Positions 22,691 to 57,420 of a DNA stretch of 64,000 nt are shown one piece after another. The number at the start of each line of letters is the position of its first letter. Position 1 is the stretch's first letter. A model generated the notes under the pieces. The model did no database searches and was not told the origin of the DNA. It saw nothing but the letters and a program-made list of their open reading frames with translations. Position numbers and translations under genes: made by a program. Source of the DNA: Rhizophagus irregularis (taxonomy: Eukaryota; Glomeromycota; Glomeromycetes; Glomerales; Glomeraceae); the NCBI RefSeq assembly GCF_026210795.1, contig NC_089430.1, forward strand, positions 1,984,001 to 2,048,000, in the 5' to 3' direction.

Positions 22691-23274
22691 ATGCTACAAT
22701 GGAATTTTTTAAGATAAAAAAAAAGATTTTTTTTGTAACAATGTAACAATAAACTACTTATACAAAATTGTTTTTGTAATGAATTTGTAAATTTCACAGT
22801 ACTGCAACATTTGTTTCGTACGATAAATAAGATTTGCATTTAATAATAATATTATATACTGTACATATACTAGATTGTGTAATTTACTACATTTATTTCC
22901 TACTAATACCATCATGATAATAGTTACCTACTCTCTTGCTTGATGGGCAAGTATCATCCCCGGCGCAACGCGACGGGTTACGCCTAGTTTTTTTTTAAAA
23001 AAAGATTTTCATGTTATGAGTAAAAAATACCCACAACTATGAAAAATTTAGACAATTTTTCGCCACCTTTTTAATTTTAGTTAAAAATTTTTACCTAATT
23101 TGCCAAAATTGAATAAATTTAATTGCCGATCTAGATTATTTTGTGTATTTTAACTAGTCTTTTTTTTCATAATTTTGTTGCCGCTCTTGGTATCGTTGCA
23201 ACACAAAAAAATATGTTATTAATTCATATGTAAAAATTACTAAAAAAAAAAATAATGGTGAACGCTATTTTAAA
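22691..23274. other. Intergenic upstream of the kinase pseudogene
   Basis: AT-rich DNA. Near 22945-22990 is CCCCGGCGCAACGCGACGGGTTACGCC (described as two joined phrases), a GC-rich patch of unknown origin, probably the end of a dispersed element. No gene supported. Confidence 0.3.
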
Positions 23275-25040
23275 ATGGATGAAATTAAATTAAGTGATGA
23301 TGTAATTGAACAAATAAAAGATTTTAATCATAATAATCACTTGACTGAAGAACAGGAATTATCGTCAATTAATAAACTAATAACAGACAAAGAATATGGT
23401 TTGTATAAAAAATGTAAGCAGCTTAATACTGATTATTATTATTGTCAATCATGTAAATCACAAAATTTTAAACAAAACTTCATAAATTGGTATGAATTTA
23501 TTCAAAAAGCACAATTAAAAGCTAAAAATGAGAGACAAATAATAGAATGGATTGAATACAATAAATTTGAAAATATTGAATATTTAGCAAAAGGAGGATT
23601 TTGAACTATTTTTAAAGCTGTTTGGAAAGATGGTCCTTGGGAAATAAATTATGGAAATGATCAATTGGAAAGAGAAGGCAAATTAAAAGTTGCTTTAAAA
23701 TGTTTGCGTAACTTAAAAGGCATTACAGCAGATTTTTTAAAAGAAGTAAGATATTTTTCATATAAATCTTCATTAGCCTTTATAAATGGTTAAACTAACT
23801 ATAATTTACTTTTTAAGATTGAATCAAATATTTTGGTATGCGATACTGGTTGGGTAGTTCGTTGTTTTGGTATTACTAAAGATCCAAAAACAAATGATTT
23901 TATTATGGTAATGGAATTAAAGATGGTACAACATTTAAATAATAATTTCATTTCACCGAATTGGAAGCAAAAGTTGCAGAATTTATATAATATTGCATAT
24001 GCCCAGTAAATAGTTTTTGTGTAAATTTATACCAAACGGGCTCATTGGCTCGAAATTAGCTCAAATTTATGCAAAAAATAATCCAAATTTAAGCCAATCT
24101 AGAGCCAATTATATATGGATGAGCCCATTTGGTACAAATTTATACAAAAACTATTTACTGGGATGGTCTTAAAGATATTCATAATAAAGGATTAATTCAT
24201 CATGATTTTCATTGTGGAAATATATTAAGTGATTTTAATACGGGAAGTTTCATCACTGATTTAGGATTATGTAGACCAGTAAATGTCAAATTCTCTCAAA
24301 ATAATAATAAAAAAATATATGGAGTATTACCTTATGTAGCTCCTGAAGTTTTAAGAGAAAAGAATATACTCAAAAAAGTGATATTTATGGGTTTGGAATC
24401 ATTGCATATGAAATTTGTACAGGTTTCCCTCCTTATTATTATATAGCTCATGATGAATCCTTAGCAATGAAAATTTGTAAGGGAGGCCAAAGTCTAATTA
24501 TAAAATACCTCAATTAATTTTTGATATTATTAATCAATGCTGGGATTAAGACCCTTTAAAACGACCTAATTCAGATGAATTACTGAATTAATTAAAAATA
24601 TTAGAATGGGATAGTTATGAAAATTCTGTAATCAATAAACAAACCGAAGAAGCAGATGAAATTAATAAAAAGTCATATTCATTACCATTATCATCTACAA
24701 GTTCTACAAGTACACTCTCATATATGATACATCCTCAAGCAGTTTATACAAGTAGGCTTTAGATTTTAAAAATCTTCCAGAACCCAATAATGCTAACAAT
24801 AATAATGATTTATTTGGAATAGAATATTCAGGTAATTATAAGTAATTTCATATTAATAATTATAATAATTTAAATTAATTTTATAATGCTAACAACTAAT
24901 AATATTTATAGATTCCTTAAGAATGGATTTTACTAAACTTGATATTAATTCCAAAGGTAATTACTTTTGCATATGATATTTTTGATCTATTAAGTATTTA
25001 ATTAAAATATTTTTTTATTATAGATGAAAGAAATCAATAA
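23275..25040 (+). pseudogene. Protein kinase pseudogene split by a MITE
   Basis: Paralog of the 19370 gene. It starts MDEIKLSDDVIEQIKDF, keeps one CQSC pair and QIIEWIEYNKFENIEYLAKGG. It then has TGA (23602) where the Gly-loop glycine codon should be, resuming as TIFKAVWKDG and LKVALKCLRNL. After an intron, VVRCFGITKDPKTNDFIMVM and LQNLYNIAY run into the 161-bp MITE (24002-24162). Removing it with one 3-bp duplication gives IAYGLKDIHNKGLIHHDFHC in frame. The catalytic loop is HHD instead of HRD. DLGLCRP and YVAPEVLREK follow, then a shift before GLESLH, and further stops in the C-lobe (WD-stop-DPLKRPNSDELLN-stop-LK). Tail phrase IHPQAVYTSR matches the intact paralog. Short 3' exons end at TAA 25038. 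Multiple independent lesions make this a clear pseudogene. Confidence 0.85.
24002..24162. mobile_element. 161-bp MITE, CCCAGTAAATAG ends, ATG duplication
   Basis: The termini are near-perfect inverted repeats of about 44 bp: left CCCAGTAAATAGTTTTTG and on to CCAAACGGGCTCAT, right-end reverse complement CCCAGTAAATAGTTTTTG to CCAAATGGGCTCAT. ATG (23999-24001 and 24163-24165) is duplicated, and excision restores the kinase reading frame. Non-coding. The high arm identity suggests a recent insertion. Confidence 0.85.
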
Positions 25041-26862: not shown

Positions 26863-29800
26863 ATGGCTCTTAGTAATGATAAAGGTAATAATCATATATA
26901 TAATATAAACATTTAATACAATTAGAATTCTAATAATTTAAACAAATTTACAATATAATAAAACTAGTTTCTGATAATATTGAATTAGAAGGAAGCAGTA
27001 GCTCTAAGGAATTCAAAGAAAGTGGCTTTGAAGGATTTGAAAAAAGTAGTACCAAGGAATCTAAAGGTATAATAACATGCGTGCTAAAATATTAAATTTT
27101 TATTTGTAAATACATTTAAATACTATCTATAATTATATCTTATATAATATTCAAATATAGCTCGTAAGTTAATAGGTTATCTTATAATTGAATAATAATG
27201 GAATTACTTACCATTTTTATTACATTTCATGCAATTAAATAATTCATTTAATGATTAATAATACTATAGTCAGTAAGTTATTAGTTATTTAAATTTTTAA
27301 TTCTTTACTTGTTTATTTTACATAATATTCAAATAACTAAATTCTTTATTTAATTAACTATTTAATAATTAATTGTATTACAGATGGTAAGTGACAATAT
27401 CATATTTATTTGTTTAATATTTTATATAACTCAACTAATTATATTCTTAATTTAAACAACCAGATTGTAAGTGATATTTAATATGCAGTAAATGCTTTTA
27501 TATTATCTTTATATTTAACTAATAATTAATTAATAATACTAGGGTGTAAGTAATAGATATCTATATTTCTATTATTTATATTATTCATATAATTTAAACT
27601 GACTAAATTCTTTATTTAAATAGATCGTAAGTTATAAGTTATTTATTTAATTCTATTATTACTTATTGTTATAATATTTAAATATAATTTAAATTAACTA
27701 AATTCTTTATTTAAATAGATCGTAAGTTATACGTTATTTATTTAATTCTATCATTATTTATTGTTATAATATTTACATATAATTTAAACTAATTAAATAC
27801 TTTATTTAAATAGATTGTAAGTTATAAGTTATTTATTTAATTCTATTATTATTGTTATAATATTTACATATAAATGATATAATTTAAACTAATTAAATTC
27901 TTTATTTAAATAGATCGTAAGTTATACGTTATATATTTAATTCTATTATTACTTATTGTTATAATATTTACATATAATTTAAACTAACTAAATTTTTTAT
28001 TTAAATAGGTCGTAAGTTATAAGTTATTTATTTAATTCTATTATTATATTATTACATATAATTTAAACTAACTATTAAAAACTATTTACTAATATAGGGA
28101 GTAAGTTATTTATTCTATTATTATTTATTGTTATAATATTTACATAATTTAAACTAACTTAAATTCTTTATTTAAATAGATCGTAAGTTATAATTAATTC
28201 TATTATTACTTATTGCATATAATTTAAACTAACTTCTTTATTTAAAAATTATTTTGTAATTTCTTTTAGTTGGTAAGTTATAAGCTATTATTTAATTCTA
28301 TTATTACTTATTGTTATAATTTAAACTAACGAAATTCTTTATTTAAAAATTATTTTGCAATTTCTTTTAGTTGGTAAGTTATAAGTTATTTATTTAATTC
28401 TATTATTACTTATTGTTATAATTTAAACTAAATTCTTTATTTAAAAATTATTTAATAATGTAGGGAGTAAGTTATTCTTTTTAATTCTATTATTACTTTA
28501 TTGTTATAATATTTACATATAATTTAAACTAACTAAGTTCTTCATTTAAATAGATCGTAAGTTATAAGTTATTTATTTAATTCTATTCTTACTTATTGTT
28601 ATAATATTTACATATAATTTAAGTTTACTAAATGTAATTTCTTTTAGTTAGTAAGTTATAAGTTATTTATTTAATTCTATTATTACTTGTTATTATAATA
28701 TTTACATATAATTTAAACTAACTAAATTCTTTATTTAAAAAATTATTTTATAATTTCTTTTAGTTGGTAAGTTATAAGTTATTTATTTAATTCTATTATT
28801 ACATATTGTTATAATTGTTATAATATTTACATATAAATTAAACTAACTAAATTCTTTATTTAAATAGATCGTAAGTTATAAGTTATTTATTTAATTTTAT
28901 TATTATTTATTGTTATAATATTTACATATAATTTAAACTAACTAAATTCTTTATTTAAAAATTTTTTTGTAATTTCTTTTAGTTGGTAAGTTATAAGTTA
29001 TTTATTTAATTCCATTATTTCTTATTGTTATAGTATTTACATATAATTTAAACTAACTAAATTCTTTGTTTAAATAGATCGTAAGTTATAAGTTATTTAT
29101 TTAATCTATCATTACTTATTGTTATAATATTTACATATAATTTAGACTAACTAATATTTAAAAAAATTATTTAATAATATAGGGAGTAAGTTATTTATTT
29201 AATTCTATTATTATATAATATTTACATATAATTTAAATTAACTAAATTCTTTATTTAAATAGATTGCAAGTTATAAGTTATTTATTTGATTCTATTATTA
29301 CTTATTGTTATATATAATTTAGACTAACTAATTTCTTTATTTAAAAAATTATTAAATAATTTAGCTTGTAAGTTATTTATTTAATTCTATTATTATTTAT
29401 TGTTATAATATTTACATATAATTTAAATTAACTAAATTCTTTATTTAATAGATCGTAAGTTATAAGTTATTTATTTAATTCTATTATCACTTATTGTTAT
29501 AATGTTTACATATAATTTAAACTAACTAAATCCTTTATTTAAATAGATCGTAAATTAGAAGCTATTTATTTAATTCTATTATTACTTATTGTTATAATAT
29601 TTATATATAATTTAAACTAACTAAATTCTTTATTCTAAAAATTATTTAATAATATAGGGAGTAAGTTATTTATTTAATTCTATTATTACTTATTGTTATA
29701 ATATTTATATATAATTTGAACTAACTAAATTCTTTATTTAAATAGATAGTAAGTTATAAGTTATTTATTTAATTCTATTATTACTTTTGTTGTAATATTT

Positions 29801-32122
29801 ACATAAAATTTTAAACTAACTAAATTCCTTATTTAAATAGATCGTAAGTTATACATTATTTATTTAATTCTATTATTACTATTGTTATAATATTTACATA
29901 TAATTTAAACTAACTAAATTCTAAAAATTGTTTATTAATATAGGGAGTAAGTTATTTATTTAATTCTATTATTACTTATTGTTATACAATTTAAACTAAC
30001 TAAATTCTTTATTTAAATAGATTGTAAGTTATAACTTATTTATTTAATTCTATTATTACTTATTGTTATAATATTTACATATATTTTAAACTGATTAAAT
30101 TCTTTATTTAAATAGATTGTAAGTTATAAGTTATTTATTTAATTCTATTATTACTTATTGTTATAATATTTACGCATAATTTAAACTAATTAAACTCTTT
30201 ATTTAAAAATTATTAAATAATATAGCATGTAAGTTATAAGTTATTTATTAATTCTATTATTACTTATTGTTATAATATTTACATATAATTTAAACTAACT
30301 AAATTCTTTATTTAAATAGATCGTAAGTTATAAGTTATTTATTAATTCTATTATTACTTATAATATTTATATATAAATTAAACTAACTAAATTCTTTATT
30401 TAAAAAATTATTTCATAGATGGTAAGTTATTTATTTAATTCTATTATTACTTATTGTTATAATATTTACATATAATTAAACTAACTAAATTATTTATTTA
30501 ATAATATAAGCTTGTAAGTTATTTTTTGTTTCTATTGTTATCTATTTTATAAATATTTATTTGTTAATTGGATTTTTTATTTAAAATCTTTGTTACTTTA
30601 GTTGGTAAGTTGTAAATATGTTATTATTATATATATTTATACAAAATCTAAGACATATATTATATTAAATTTCTATTTAAATTTTAGAGTAAGTGTTAAT
30701 TTTAATCTTAAATTTTAGTGTAATTTTTATTATAAACTTCAATATAATTTTAATTATTTAAATTTATATATAGATTTGGAAAAAGTGGAGATACAATTAT
30801 GGATAATTTTATTTTGGAAAAAAAATTTAAATGGATTCCTTATGATAAATTTAAAAATGTTGAATATCTTGATAAAGGAGGATTTGGTACTATATATAAA
30901 GCTATTTGGTTTTATAATAATAAAGATAATGAAGTAATTCTTAAATGTCATATTAATTTAAGTGAAAATTTAAATGAATTTTTAAATGAAGTATGATAAT
31001 ATATTATTTATTTTTTTAATTTGAATTATATTTTATTTATACTAATACATTATTACTTTTTTATAGTGGAAATATCATGAAAGTTGTTTAAGTTCATATG
31101 ATATTATTTATTTTTATGGGTTTACAAAAGATCCAGATACTTTGAAATATATGGTAGTAATGGATTATGCAAACAAAGGTAATTTAAGAGGAAACTTAAC
31201 AAGAATAATCAAAAGTGGTTGGTATCAAAAATTATACATGTTATTTGAAATTATTTCTGGACTTAATGATATGCATAAACAAAATCTTATTCATTGTGAT
31301 TTTCATGATGGAAATATTTTAAATCATAATGAAAGTAAGATTTATATTAGTGATTTAGGATTATGTAAACCTGTAAAATCATTTTTGAAAAAATATGATA
31401 TTTATGGTGTTATACCATTTATGGCACCAGAAGTTTTAAGAGGCAATTCTTATACTCTAGCTAGTGATATATATAGTTTTTCTATGATTATGTGGGAATT
31501 TACGTCTGGGGTACCACCATTTAATAATAGAGCACATGATTTTCAACTTAGCTTAAGTATTTGTGGAGGTGAACATCCTGAAATTATTGAAAATACTCCA
31601 CAATGTTATGTAGATTTGATGGAAAAGTGTTGGAATGAAAACCAATTAAAAAGGCCATCTTCTAAAGAAGTTTTAAATATTATTAAAGAATGGATTTCTC
31701 TTCCAGATAATGTGAAAGTCGAAGATATTAATGAAGAATTAAAATGCAATATTATGGAATTTATAAATGCACCAATTGGGTATAACAATAATCTTGCTAC
31801 TGAATCTCATCCAAAAGCACATTATGCAAGCCGCTTACTTGGTTTTACTAGTAAACAATTGAATGAAATTCTTGAAAGCAGAGATTTGCAAGCTTATAAT
31901 TCAAGTCAATCATTTACTACTAGTGGAAAAGTGAATGAAGAAAGTGAAGATTCACAATCTAGTATAAAAGTTAATGAAATGCTAGTAAGTAAAGATTTGG
32001 ATGATTGTATAGTTAATTTGAAATTATCAGGTATGTAATATAATGTATATAAAAAGAATTAACTTTGCAAATTATTTATGTAAAATTAATTTTATTTATT
32101 TAATTATTTAGATAAAAAATAA
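26863..32122 (+). CDS. Protein kinase gene with tandem 3-nt microexon array in its 5' half (model)
   Basis: Model: exons 26863-26884 (MALSNDK) and 26968-27066 (VSDNIELEGSSSSKEF onward, ending phase 1), 37 three-base modules (27161-30604), one possible 1-nt module (30688), then kinase exons 30774-30990, 31067-32030 and 32112-32122. The kinase part is intact: SGDTIMDNFILE and FKWIPYDKF as in its paralogs, Gly-loop DKGGFGTIYKAIW, VILK lysine, HCDFHDGN (HRD Arg replaced by Cys), DLG, APEVLRG, SDIYSFSMIMWE, C-lobe KRPSSKEVLN, tail with SHPKAHYASRLLGF. The spliced total is 1425 nt (475 codons) only if the 1-nt module is included. Without it the upstream exons and the kinase exon are out of phase. 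It is not certain that the first two exons belong to this gene. A shorter protein could start at ATG 30799. Kinase function is as for the 19370 gene; cytoplasmic, substrate unknown. Confidence 0.6.
27161..30604 (+). repeat. Array of 37 AG-NNN-GTAAGT modules (tandem three-nucleotide microexons)
   Basis: Each module is a 3' splice site (AG after an AT-rich tract), exactly three bases, then GTAAGT or a close variant. First bases of the triplets: CTC 27161; TCA 27270; ATG 27384, 30419; ATT 27464, 27814, 29263, 30021, 30116; GGT 27543; ATC 27624, 27719, 27914, 28180, 28554, 28868, 29078, 29452, 29547, 29841, 30320; GTC 28009; GGA 28098, 28464, 29183, 29658, 29944; TTG 28270, 28371, 28764, 28983, 30602; TTA 28648; CTT 29365, 30511; ATA 29746; CAT 30226. 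Spacing is 77-116 bp, normal intron size here. The inter-module sequence is a shared, drifting unit (TTATTTAATTCTATTATTAC, then TTGTTATAATATTTACATAT, then AATTTAAACTAACTAAATTC, listed as three parts). Modules 1-5 are diverged and probably oldest; 6-34 are close copies. No triplet is a stop, and the phase-1 reading is also stop-free. Confidence 0.8.
30688..30688 (+). other. Possible 1-nt module (TTTTAG-A-GTAAGT)
   Basis: The same acceptor/donor juxtaposition as the array but with one base between the sites. The carry before the array is 1 nt and the kinase exon at 30774 needs a carry of 2 nt, so inclusion of this single base would restore frame (final codon GAA before TTT GGA AAA). A second similar site (TTTTAG-T-GTAATT, near 30719) is weaker. 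Function is inference from arithmetic only. Confidence 0.35.
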
Positions 32123-35098: not shown

Positions 35099-35977
35099 TT
35101 AAAGTTTTGAAGCCTCATACACTAGTTTCGTGAATTCTTCGAAAGAATATATGGGTGAATCAGTTGAACCACTTTTTGAAGCGCTTGCATTACCAATTAC
35201 CCTGCCTGTATTATTTTTATTGTCATATTGTCTAATCCAAGGACCTCCGCTTGAACCACTTCCGGTATTTAAAGGTACATATCTAAAACTACCCGATCGA
35301 GACGAACTCCCATTCCATTTGCAAGGGGAATTTCCATCTCTTTTACAATCTTTAATTTCACCATTTACTGGGTAACCTATTGCAGTGATATTATTAACTG
35401 TATCGCCCGGATTAGTATCCCAGTCGAAACATCCTGTTTTGTCTTGCAATTTACCCTGATCGTAATTGAACTTAATCATGCCATAATCATAATAATAGTG
35501 ACCATCTACTACTTCTACAGAACCTCCTTTAACGGGTATAGCAACCGGACATTGACCGTTTTCATACCCGGGGCAAAAAACCATATTTGAAGACCAACTA
35601 CCATTTCCATTATAAATACAATGTGCGGCAGTAAGCCCGATATTTCCATTTTCAGTCCTAATTACACTAGCAGTACAAAAATAATTTTTACCATCTCCGG
35701 TGTTATGAAAAAATAATTTTCCATAAGGAACATAAGGATTATAACTTGTAATGTTCGATTCCTTCACTGGTAACTGATCTCTTTTAGTACGATAATTGGG
35801 TTTATTATTTTTAGATTCATTAGTTGTTAAGGGTATTGCATCTCTCATTTTTTCAGGTGTCCAATAAGCATCTTCGATGTCAAATACTTTAGTAATTATA
35901 GAACCTGCAACCGTATATTTTAAATTAGTTATGACCGTAAGTACAATCAAAATGTAAAATATAAATTTTTCATTCAT
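35099..35977 (-). CDS. Secreted trypsin-like (S1/V8-like) serine protease, 292 aa
   Basis: Single exon. An N-terminal hydrophobic signal peptide (residues 1-25, MNEKFIFYILIVLTVITN start) is followed by a probable propeptide with a kexin-type dibasic site RTKR (63-66). The catalytic triad is in the expected order: His119 in IGLTAAHCIYNG, Asp164 in YYYDYGMIKF, Ser243 in GSGSSGGPW. The family hydrolyses peptide bonds with Ser attacking and His/Asp relaying charge. Seven cysteines after residue 100 and several NxS/T sites fit extracellular maturation. The fold and length resemble bacterial/fungal glutamyl-endopeptidase-like S1 proteases more than animal trypsin. The start is chosen at the ATG giving the signal peptide. 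No neighbouring gene is co-oriented. Likely role is extracellular protein degradation or host interface, by inference. Confidence 0.88.
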   Translation of the reverse strand: MNEKFIFYILIVLTVITNLKYTVAGSIITKVFDIEDAYWTPEKMRDAIPLTTNESKNNKPNYRTKRDQLPVKESNITSYNPYVPYGKLFFHNTGDGKNYFCTASVIRTENGNIGLTAAHCIYNGNGSWSSNMVFCPGYENGQCPVAIPVKGGSVEVVDGHYYYDYGMIKFNYDQGKLQDKTGCFDWDTNPGDTVNNITAIGYPVNGEIKDCKRDGNSPCKWNGSSSRSGSFRYVPLNTGSGSSGGPWIRQYDNKNNTGRVIGNASASKSGSTDSPIYSFEEFTKLVYEASKL

Positions 35978-36330
35978 TTTTGAAATTAAGAATTTTAGGG
36001 TTAAAAATAACTGAAGTTATTCAAAGTGGAAATAAAAATTAGAAGTTACTTTTTTTACTTTTTTTTTAAAGAAGAAAAAAACTCAATGTTTATATATTTC
36101 TTTAATCGTGACTCAAAAAAAAAAACCTTGTGGTTTATTGTGACTGTAAATCCTTGAAGTGACATGGAATATCGATTCAAGAAAAATATTTTTGATTTTT
36201 TTTTTTTAAATTTAATTATTATTATCACTAAGAAAGGAATATGAGAATATCTCACACTATTCTCCAATGTTAAGGTGCCAATCGCGCATGTAACATGCAG
36301 ATCATTTTCATTTTACTTCATTCGATTTAA
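35978..36330. other. 5' flank of the protease gene
   Basis: AT-rich upstream sequence with a run of short T/A tracts. No TATA box of canonical form within 100 bp could be fixed with confidence. The open frame at 36055-36267 on the minus strand has no recognisable content. Confidence 0.3.
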
Positions 36331-53699: not shown

Positions 53700-53809
53700 T
53701 ATGTTATGATGGGTACCCATTATAAGAAACGGCGGGTACCTATTATAAGGAACGGCGGGTACCCGCTATAAGAAACGGCGGGTACCCGTTATAAGAAACG
53801 GCAGGTACC
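53700..53809. repeat. 23-bp tandem repeat of GGGTACCCGYTATAAGAAACGGC
   Basis: About four copies here and three more at 55488-55556, the two halves having been one array before the nested insertion. A related array (GAAGCGGCGGGTACCCGATA followed by TGT) lies at 57040-57170. GGTACC is a perfect palindrome, so single strands may form cruciforms. Confidence 0.7.
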
Positions 53810-55487
53810 TATGGCAAGCCATTCAAGTCAAAAGTCCGCCGCTATTGCAGCAGGTACCTGTTGCTTTCGCGGCAGGTACCTGCTAGATTTGCAGCAGGTA
53901 CCTGCTGAATTTGCAGCAGGTATCTGCTGGATTCACGGCAGATACCTGCTAGAATTGCGGCAGGTACCTGCTAGATTTGCGGCAGGTACCTGCTGAATTA
54001 GCGGCAGGTACCTGCTGAACTTGCAGCAGGTACCTGACAGGTTACAAATATGGTATTTTATTTTTTCTGGGTCAAAAAGATTTTTTTGATTTCCATTTAT
54101 AGTAATCTACCGAATTATTGGATCTAAGTTAGTTTATTTCTTTTTTCAGAAGTGATCTTCATCTCATAATTCGGCCTATTACTTTAAATTTTGCTAAAAT
54201 TAATGATATATAAGGAATCTATATTTGATTAATTATAAATAAATTTTTGAAAAGATCGTTTAATTGAAAAAGATTACTGCAGAATACATTTTACAATAAG
54301 CTTAAAAATCAAACTATAAAATTTATATTATTTATTTTTTATATACTATTATTTTTATTGAAGTTTTGCTTTATATATCATTATTAGTTGAATTTATAAG
54401 AGTTATGACAATGGGATTGACATAAAATGAGTCTTTGTCATATTCACACATCTGCTCATAATTGTTTTAGATTTCCTGCCCAAATTCAAAATAAAAATAA
54501 ATAGTTTATTTATGATTTTTAGCAAATCAACAGACATTTCTATAAAAAAAATATACATATAATGAGCTATCAATAAAGTTAAATTTACTGGAGTTGCTTT
54601 TTTTTAAAAAAAAAAATATTCCCTATATGTAAATTTTTGTTCATTAGTTCTTTTAATGGTTTTGCAAAGATTTCATAATTTAAAATTTTTTTTCTAAATG
54701 ATCAGAGATTTCCAGCCATAATCCACATATAAGAAAGGGTTTTGTGATATTGGTTTAAAATTAAAAGAATAATATTAATGATAGTGGCATCAATAAATTT
54801 AAACCAATATAGTTAAATTAGGTATATAAATAATAATATTCTGGTAGTGTATTTTGTTATACTAATCATTTAATCAAATTGTAAATTTTAAAATTATTTA
54901 AATTGATTTTTATATTGCTCATTTGAATTTAAAAATTTTATAATAATTTATTATTAATTCTTTCATTTATAATTTTTTTTATACTTAAAAGTTGAGTTTC
55001 AAGTTATTTTTTACATTAAACCTTATTTTAAAAAATACTTTGAATTTACAATATAAATTAAAACTATTAAAGATTTTAGTATTGATTATACGATTAATTC
55101 TAGCCAAATTTATAGTAATGGGCAGAATTATGAGATGAAAATCACTTCTGAAAAAAGAAATAAACTAACTTGGATCCAATAATTCGGTAGATTACTATAA
55201 ATGGAAATCAAAAAGATTTTTTTGACCCAGAAAAAATAAAATACCATATTTGTAACCTGTCAGGTACCTGCTGCAAATTCAGCAGGTACCTGCCGTAAAT
55301 CTAGCAGGTACCTGCCGCAATTCTAGCAGGTACTTGCTGCAAATCTAGCAGGTACCCGCCGCAATTCTAGCAGGTATCTGCTGCAATTCTAGCAGGTACC
55401 TGCTGCAAATTCAGCAGGTACCTGCCGCAAATCTAGCAGGTACCTGCCGCAATAGCAGCGGACTTTTGACTTGAACGGCTTGCCATA
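53810..55487. mobile_element. 1.7-kb foldback element nested in the larger one, 6-bp duplication GGTACC
   Basis: Ends are TATGGCAAGCCATTC and, from the right, TATGGCAAGCCGTTC, both followed by AAGTCAAAAGTCCGC. GGTACC is duplicated (53804-53809, 55488-55493), and deletion restores the host's 23-bp repeat phase. Arms of about 360 bp (to about 54165 and from about 55125) are inverted copies: a roughly 21-bp tandem repeat (GCRGCAGGTACCTGCTRRAT) followed by a unique arm (TTCTGGGTCAAAAAGATT, ACCGAATTATTGGATC, TCTCATAATTC). A loop of about 950 bp, AT-rich and non-coding, joins them. The 53811-53996 open frame is repeat translation, not a gene. Confidence 0.8.
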
Positions 55488-55689
55488 GGTACCCGCTATA
55501 AGAAACGGCGGGTACCTGTTATAAGAAACGGCGGGTACCCGTTATAAGAACTGGCAGTCAGCATATTAACTTTTGATAAACATCAATAATGATAATTATT
55601 TATTTAATGAAATTTTATTTGACAAATATTAAAATTTAAGTCACACATTTACGATTTTAAAGAAAAAAATCACCATATTTATTTTTATT

Positions 55690-57010
55690 GAAGTGTACAA
55701 ATAAAATTAACAATAACAATAAATAAAAAAGATAAGTAAATTACAATGATCAAGGAGAAAGATGCTAATAAAAAAATGAAACAACAGTGGAGTAATGGAA
55801 AGTAATAGAAGATAAAAGGGAGTAAAAAAGAGTAATGAGAAGTGATAGGAAACAAAAAGGAGAAATAGGACATAATGAGAGATGAAAAGGAGTGATGGTA
55901 GACAAGGAGCGATGGGAGATGAAAGGAAGTGATAGGAAGATGAAGAGAAGTAAAAATTTATTAAAATTGTAAATTTAATAAAAAATTTTCCAATAAATTT
56001 TCAATCAATTTTTTATAAAAAAAAAGATCTCTAATGAAATTCTTTATTAAAAAAAAATTTTCAAGCCAAAATTCTCGATACACTTATTAAAAAAAACTAT
56101 TTTCAATAAAATTTTCTATTAAGATTTCTAAACAAAATTCTCCATCAAAAAAATAAAAAAATTTTTCAACAAACAATTCTCTAATGAATTCTCAATCAAA
56201 AAAAATATCCCGATTAAAGAAAAATTCAAAGATTCTTACCACCTATTAAAAAAAATTCTCAAAAGAATTTCTATACCAAAAAAAAAAATCTTTACTGAAA
56301 TTCTCTATCAAAAAAATCTCCCTGTTAAAAAAATTTACACTAACGAAATTATCTATCAAAAAAAAATTCTATGATGAAATTTCTATCAAAAAAAAAATAT
56401 TCTCAGTGAAATCTATTTAAGAAAATTCTTTAATGAAATTCTCTATCAAAAACAATCCCCCTATTAAAAAAAAATTCTCTAATAAAATTCTTCGTCAAAA
56501 AATACTTTCACCTATTAAAAAAATTCTCAAAAGAAATTCTTTATTAAGGAAAACTCCTTCAATTAAAAAAAAATTCGTAACAAAATTCTCTATCAAAAAA
56601 AATTTCATTTGTTAAAAAATTTTCTAACGAAATTATCTATCAAAAAAAAATCTTCAAATAATTTTCTACAAAAAAAAAAAAAATCTCAAATAATTCTCTA
56701 TCAAAAAAATCTCTCCTGTTAAAAAAAATTGCTCCAACAAATTAAGTATACGTCAAAAAAAAAAAAATCTTATTAAAAAAAATTCTCCAATGAAATTTCT
56801 ATCAAATAAAAGTTTTTAACGAAATTATCCATCAAAAAAAAAAACTCAGAAATGTCCCTATCAATGAAAAAAATTTTCTAACAAAATTTTTTATCAAAAA
56901 AAATCTTCTTATTAAAAAAATTTCCAATCAAATTCTATCAAACAAAGCCTTTGCCTATATTAAAAATAAAAATTCTCTACAAAATTTGTTTATAAAAAAA
57001 AGCCAAGAAA
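55690..57010. repeat. A-rich degenerate tandem repeats inside the foldback element
   Basis: 55740-55950 is a purine-rich tract with repeated AGTRATRGGARAYRAAARGG-like words. 56030-57000 holds some 25 drifted copies of a 35-45-bp word, TTCTCTAATGAAATT plus CTATCAAAAAAA. No gene supported. Confidence 0.55.
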
Positions 57011-57420
57011 AAAAAAAAATTTTTAAAAAAAAAAAATTAAATGGCGGGTACCCGATATGTAAAATAGCGTTTACCCGCTATGTGAAGCGGCAGGTACCCG
57101 ATATGTGAAGCGGCGGGTACCCGATTTGTGAAGCGGCGGGTACCTGATATGTGAAGCGGCGGGTATTCAATCCCTTGAAAATTTTAAAATTTGGTCTAAA
57201 ATAAATTAATAAACCGTTATAATATAAAGTGTATACACGTTAAATTATGTAGCGTATACACGCTGTTTTTTATGGCGGGTTACCCCTGAAATTGACAGGT
57301 TAATCCAACAGAATAGGGGTAACCCGCCGTAAAAGATAACGTGTATACGCTGTGTTTTGTAGCGTGTACACGCTATGTTTTGCTACGCACTTTTGACCAC
57401 TACCGCTTGCCATATTAAAT

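Follow-up and report, generated by a model that had tools for sequence, protein, structure and literature searches.

We describe a gene of Rhizophagus irregularis in which, as we predict, a hypervariable peptide is assembled codon by codon from 37 consecutive exons of three bases each, ahead of a protein kinase domain. The gene lies at positions 26863-32038 of the plus strand of a 64,000-nucleotide stretch of contig NC_089430.1 (C2:1984001-2048000), here called the window, and arrays of the same kind precede many paralogous kinase genes. From the way these sequences have evolved, we put the probability that the array is coding at roughly nine in ten. This reading is carried by computed properties of the DNA: the frame, the conservation of exon length and of a one-base exon, the avoidance of stop codons between neighbouring triplets and an excess of change in the triplets. 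The features of the gene, predicted from the sequence, are as follows (window coordinates).

26863..32038, plus strand: array gene, whole predicted extent
26863..26884, plus strand: predicted first coding exon, MALSNDK, ending in phase 1
26968..27066, plus strand: predicted second exon, acidic and serine-rich (VSDNIELEGSSSSKEF...ESK), ending in phase 1
27067..27160, plus strand: pre-array intron, GTATAA...TAG, 94 nt
27161..30604, plus strand: array of 37 three-nucleotide exons and 36 introns, phase-1 reading ALNDWYHHYRRNLVGNLIDLDRNSYHRNNRNYSYHAF
27161..27163, plus strand: first triplet exon, CTC, opening the block CTC-TCA-ATG-ATT-GGT, a form common to many paralogs
30602..30604, plus strand: last triplet exon, TTG; the CTT-TTG end is common to many paralogs
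30688..30688, plus strand: one-nucleotide exon (A) in a unit AG-A-GTAAGT, changing phase 1 to phase 2 for the kinase exon
30774..30990, plus strand: kinase exon 1 (FGKSGDTIMDNFILEKKFKWIPYDKF...), entered in phase 2
31067..32038, plus strand: kinase exon 2 with the stop codon, supported by Pfam

Joined in this way, the predicted gene comprises 42 exons and 1,422 nt, or 473 codons plus the final stop, and has no internal stop. On its predicted splice sites it has the architecture of a micro-exon gene, with many internal exons far below normal size. A preliminary description of the region had reported 37 AG-NNN-G[TC]AA[GA]T units at 27161-30604, spaced 77-116 bp apart, with one GCAAGT, one GTAAAT and 13 kinds of triplet; an exact recount agrees in every particular, and translation bears out its statements that no triplet is a stop and that the phase-1 reading is open. 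The strict phrase AG-N(k)-GTAAGT, counted on the plus strand of the window, has 35 matches for k=3, always inside the array, and 0 or 1 for each other k from 0 to 12. That description mentioned neither the one-base exon (30688) nor the family of arrays across the genome. The one-base exon is needed because the kinase exon is otherwise out of frame, and a direct join of 27066 to 30774, without either the array or the one-base exon, also loses the kinase frame. Pfam matches in 31067-32035 identify a protein kinase (PF07714, E 1.1e-31; PF00069, E 1.7e-30), which we take to be tyrosine-kinase-like. The scan returned three kinase-type families for 31067-32035 and none for 30775-30996, with no NACHT, NB-ARC, WD, TPR or ANK domain, and these scanned kinase exons do not have the make-up of fungal NLR/NWD allorecognition genes.

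Two other ways of reading the gene were rejected. Translated in phase 0, the triplets of the window yield a conspicuous hydrophobic string rich in L, I and G. This reading was dropped because the upstream exon ends in phase 1; it would also miss the kinase frame with a single one-base exon, and the stop test for phase 1 described below settled the choice. The last intron contains a second AG-T-GTAA unit about 24 nt past the one-base exon. Use of this unit as an exon would leave an intron much shorter than normal, and the AG of the unit is gone in five of 18 loci examined (L006, L015, L017, L019 and L020).

Genome-wide counts were made on 32 contigs totalling 146.7 Mb. The strict motif TAGNNNGTAAGTTAT has 3,772 matches, compared with 35 for a two-base and 40 for a four-base spacer and 62 for the reversed three-base pattern. 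A looser form, AGNNNGTAAGT, has 9,494 matches against 4,026 (two-base), 4,934 (four-base) and 5,237 (reversed), and part of the looser four-base count is supplied by a plain AGATTCGTAAGT satellite with a period of about 140 bp. A 601-base piece of the array, used as a query, matched the genome 285 times, the listed matches being spread over many contigs, and the kinase exon gave at least 151 matches.

We read 46 array loci: 31 found by array DNA match (L001-L032, two stretches merged), the window itself, 11 kinase paralogs picked by the kinase exon and not by the array (L033-L043) and three array ends from motif clusters (L045-L047). L044 was left out, as its sequence came from the wrong side of the gene. 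Arrays are thus present by choice in 35 loci and as a result in 11, and all 11 paralogs selected on the kinase exon alone have one. The kinase exon lies 3' of the array in every locus long enough to include it; L007, L013 and L024 stop short, and for these the kinase-exon query placed the exon downstream. The one-base exon is kept at the equivalent place in 42 of the 43 loci that hold that place, a count that excludes the same three loci, whose sequence ends before the site. Of the 42, 28 were found by pattern (among the 32 first-set loci) and 14 by eye (L023, ten of L033-L043, L042, L045 and L046). The base is A in most loci, C in L003/L004, T in L015 and L027 and G in L042, and weaker donors follow it in L041 (GTGAGT) and L042 (GTTAGT). 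Only L047 (C1:2288800-2292200) lacks it; there the kinase exon is bordered by other DNA, and the copy is probably broken.

Upstream of the arrays the loci show at least two kinds of exon, and the frames read by eye end in phase 1. MALNNDK upstream of the L005 and L015 arrays resembles MALSNDK (seven residues, E 6.2, weak alone), and other paralogs have a first exon of another kind. Relatives of the second exon lie 5' of some paralogous arrays (L015, E 5e-4; L013, 0.002; L005, 0.009; the rest weaker, some recognized by eye). In L021 the usual donor G of the upstream exon is lost. Block duplications of units are visible in L003/L004 and L037. Related inserts of about 165-190 bases (GGTGCTGTCAGATATTACC...), probably a small transposon, interrupt single array introns of L003 (from 4363) and L004 (from 1662).

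The length of the small exons is held almost without exception. Inside the arrays of the 46 loci, 1,077 of 1,104 GTAAGTTAT donors stand 3 nt from the nearest [TC]AG, 10 stand at other distances and 17 have none in range; this measure carries no parser length penalty, unlike the unit parse, in which other lengths are penalized and 976 of 987 exons (28 of 32 loci) are 3 nt long. Introns measure 96 +/- 10 nt in clean runs, defined by a unit spacing of 60-140.

If neighbouring triplets are joined and translated, they should avoid combinations that create stops, and more distant triplets should not. We therefore counted phase-1 stops (T|AA, T|AG and T|GA joins) among 1,432 triplets in clean runs of the 46 loci. 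Immediate neighbours (lag 1) gave 2 in 1,309 joins, compared with 27/1,186 at lag 2, 37/1,074 at lag 3, 22/973 at lag 4 and 2.6-3.4% at lags 5-8; non-neighbour joins overall gave 2.3-3.4%. Shuffling within loci produced a mean of 36.9 stops (standard deviation 4.8), with a minimum of 21 in 2,000 shuffles. The scarcity is specific to one phase, as phase 2 at lag 1 gave 206 stops in 1,309 and phase 0 gave 7 in 1,432, all TGA. It persists among globally distinct pairs (1/395 at lag 1 vs 15/396 at lag 2) and after removal of the conserved end blocks (2/1,137 vs 23/1,021). Such a scarcity, confined to lag 1 and to phase 1, is what is expected if neighbours are joined and translated. The parsed set contains 5 phase-1 stops in 976 triplets (L010, L014, L016 twice and L003/L004). 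Those in L014, L016 and L003/L004 fall at joins longer than 140 nt with an irregular unit, and in L014 and L003/L004 this unit has a weak donor whose use would remove the stop.

Rates of change were compared in near-identical units with introns of equal length, half of the interior intron sites serving to select the pairs and the other half as the yardstick. Within loci, with both introns matched, triplet positions 1, 2 and 3 change 12.1-17.5, 2.5-3.0 and 13.9-15.9 times as fast as the introns (106 and 115 pairs at the two thresholds). When one intron is matched, the ratios become 9.8-17.9, 4.1-10.7 and 11.7-19.9, and pairs from different loci give 8.5, 2.5 and 9.8. Overall, in the register-matched comparisons, codon positions 1 and 2 change at 8.5-20 times the rate of intron sites and codon position 3 at 2.5-11 times. 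Ungapped flank sites near the junction gave ratios of 8.7, 3.4 and 11.3. The ratio depends strongly on the flank sites used, and we relied on the version that controls register; in every version run, position 2 is the least changed of the three.

The base composition of the triplets has a codon-like pattern as well. In phase 1 the third base of each codon is supplied by triplet position 2; of the 1,338 main-set triplets, 95.6% have T or G there, and the main-set codons are thus NNK-like. Position 3 is nearly uniform in base use. The commonest residues are R, D, W, N, F and Y, with W making up 9% of 1,309 codons (conserved ends included).

Arrays of this design are not confined to the kinase genes. 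A second type was found in a GTPase gene:

C1:1722300-1735200 (L048, L051, L049): AIG1-GTPase array gene with 65 three-base units and unrelated introns

Here the array precedes a frame that encodes a coiled coil and an AIG1 GTPase (PF04548, E 1.8e-17 in L049). Read in phase 2, its 64 codons include no stop, compared with 7 in phase 1 and 3 in phase 0, and the phase-2 reading begins with an ATG split across the first two exons. Phase 2 was assigned through the downstream exon, using a GTTAGT donor that was chosen because the coiled coil continues; with another donor the phase would be 1. As the model predicts, 49 of 65 triplets have A at position 1, which supplies the third base of a codon in phase 2, and positions 2 and 3 vary. 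An array with the same intron type occurs at C17:3899800-3905300, 5' of kinases of another kind, whose N-terminus is presumably zinc-ribbon-like.

Taking these observations together, we infer the following mechanism. Each unit would consist of a short intron (about 96 nt) and one three-base exon. Introns would be removed singly and in order by intron definition and the triplets joined, each codon being formed across a junction from the last base of one triplet and the first two of the next. In the window gene, translation would yield a 37-residue peptide between the acidic N-terminus and the protein kinase, with the frame fixed by the conserved one-base exon. Duplication or loss of units would lengthen or shorten the peptide by complete codons without ever disturbing the frame, and its hypervariability would result from diversifying selection on the triplets. 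A likely role would be that of a fast-evolving binding or recognition segment (for self/non-self, a partner or a symbiont) feeding into the kinase, and elsewhere into the AIG1 GTPase. We are evenly divided on a broader proposal, in which single-codon exons by the thousands, probably in 150 or more kinase genes and in at least one unrelated GTPase gene, constitute an NNK-like library: an immune-like or self/non-self repertoire under diversifying selection that changes in length and sequence codon by codon without frameshift.

Several observations weigh against the coding interpretation. The shuffles overstate independence because the arrays share ancestry, and clean runs contain two phase-1 stops (L010 and L023). 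Eleven of the 987 parsed units have exons of other lengths despite the parser penalty; four of the 32 loci (L005, L021, L023 and L025) were left unparsed and counted in the clean-run stop test only. L006, L008 and L016 contain units that break the frame unless skipped, and two joins in L016 can avoid a stop only through irregular units, one of which has lost its donor. L016 may be decayed, and assembly errors may account for part of the odd units. A loose branch-point-like motif was present in 1,238 of 1,309 introns, a count that carries no chance control. Among the comparisons of rate, position 2 rises to 4.1-10.7 when one intron is matched, and at ungapped distal flank sites the ratios fall to 1.9, 1.0 and 2.2 and to 1.3, 0.6 and 1.8; this excess probably shrinks because indels shift the register. 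In the divergent loci L041-L043, position 2 is T or G in 63% of 84 triplets, and the rule fails. Six of the listed kinase-exon matches contain a stop, including L032, and some kinase copies may have decayed. For the AIG1 gene, zero stops also occur in 27% of shuffles, which makes that result weak alone, and its array has five gaps of more than 200 nt that may hide units. Lastly, Nanopore RNA reads went into the published annotation of R. irregularis DAOM197198, and nowhere in the main text of that paper is the term "microexon" used (PMC10234402).

Other explanations of the arrays were weighed against the same evidence. An intron-derived satellite, excised whole or in nested steps and leaving no triplet in the messenger RNA, would suit DNA that is strongly repetitive and dispersed genome-wide, and an unrelated AG-NNNN-GTAAGT satellite does exist. 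We nevertheless consider this very unlikely: 27066 would join 30774 out of frame, the conserved one-base exon would have no reason, triplets outpace introns in register-matched comparisons, and arrays accompany 11 of 11 paralogs picked by the kinase exon alone. The units of a simple satellite would also evolve without codon constraint, whereas the avoidance of stops seen here concerns neighbours and a single phase. The preliminary description had raised the concern that its phrase might be equally common in unrelated satellites. A plain satellite was indeed found (L050, C1:3471100-3473000), repeating mostly every 133-145 bp and useful as a contrast, but its phrase is AG-NNNN-GTAAGT, with a four-base spacer that hardly varies, 9 of 10 copies having ATTC. 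Little credence can be given, in the same way, to a chain of ratcheting (recursive) splice sites that each leave three bases by chance. Every unit does pair an acceptor with a donor, and zero-length units appear in the L008 and L027 parses; however, such a chain needs no residual exon or frame, yet 3 nt are held and the bases are codon-constrained. Introns may nevertheless be removed in a ratchet-like order. Of the three models in the preliminary description, whole-array removal and pure recursive splicing leave the frame and the lag-1 stop avoidance without explanation, and on the sequence the third, amplification of a three-base exon plus its intron as a unit, appears strongly favoured by both.

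It is scarcely credible that the array is a 5' untranslated or regulatory region whose units act as splicing-dependent expression elements, with the kinase starting at its own ATG (30799). An in-frame ATG is present inside kinase exon 1 of the window gene, but 15 of 18 aligned loci have Ile at this codon and only 3 have Met (the window, L004 and L015); nor would the triplets be expected to avoid phase-1 stops. Variable inclusion is a different matter, as it is compatible with coding triplets: subsets would be skipped, at random or under control, giving isoforms that differ by whole codons. Any subset of triplets keeps the frame, and units with a poor donor or the wrong length would need skipping. 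Non-neighbour joins, however, give stops in 2.3-3.4% of pairs and the selection seen is for neighbours, so that ordered full inclusion should be the rule; we regard variable inclusion as possible but doubtful. With respect to the excess of triplet change, gene conversion that spares the triplets may be the cause in place of diversifying selection.

The remainder of the window contains other features. A neighbouring kinase lies at 23173-24517 on the plus strand, and its N-terminal part (YYYCQSCKSQNFKQNFINW...), which we assume to be zinc-ribbon-like, is an uninterrupted frame. The array kinases may carry the triplet peptide in place of that N-terminal frame, which could show the ancestral state. 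An open frame at 35099-36016 on the minus strand contains LTAAHC...GSSGGPW and presumably encodes a trypsin-like serine protease that is secreted. At 53711-57165 there are several tandem repeats, richer in GC and based on GGTACC / CAGGTACCTG.

If the coding interpretation is correct, one-codon exons, thousands of them per genome, would be the sole building material of entire stretches of protein, and the spliceosome would have to join dozens of them accurately in each transcript. With introns serving as frame-safe spacers, the genome could alter its proteins one codon after another, which would probably be a source of rapid protein diversity, and the most variable part of a large kinase family may be missing from the gene models of a major plant symbiont.

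Isolated exons of three bases or of one base are known but rare, and the exons of the aphid bicycle genes are much longer than 3 nt. Our search of the open-licence PMC literature, narrow in part, found no description of arrays of consecutive one-codon exons. In the passages of the sources cited here, the micro-exon genes (MEGs) of Schistosoma mansoni have exons of 3-81 bp, introns of up to 5 kbp and secreted products (PMC10526429). They share with the array genes many short exons per gene and membership in a gene superfamily; unlike them, the genes described here have tens of consecutive exons of exactly one codon, introns of about 96 nt and amplified units before a kinase or GTPase. Bicycle genes average about 17 exons, and more than 100 microexons are present in one "megacycle" gene (PMC9168663). 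Many small exons, a near-constant phase and a fast-evolving family are common to both, whereas for bicycle genes those passages mention neither an amplified intron-plus-codon unit nor a kinase. Single-nucleotide exons with splicing evidence in Arabidopsis APC11 (PMC4674806) and Fusarium CYP621A (PMC12940212) indicate that such exons are possible and, as here, are needed for frame; in contrast to these isolated cases, the predicted one-base exon is found repeatedly across a large family of paralogs, after an array of three-base exons. In the Podospora NWD/HET allorecognition genes, WD repeats are reshuffled and a few codon positions are under diversifying selection (PMC1805685). By this description they are the closest working analogue, although the array kinases are not members of that family: the repeat in Podospora is a WD protein domain, whereas the unit amplified in R. 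irregularis is almost wholly intron, with a single codon.

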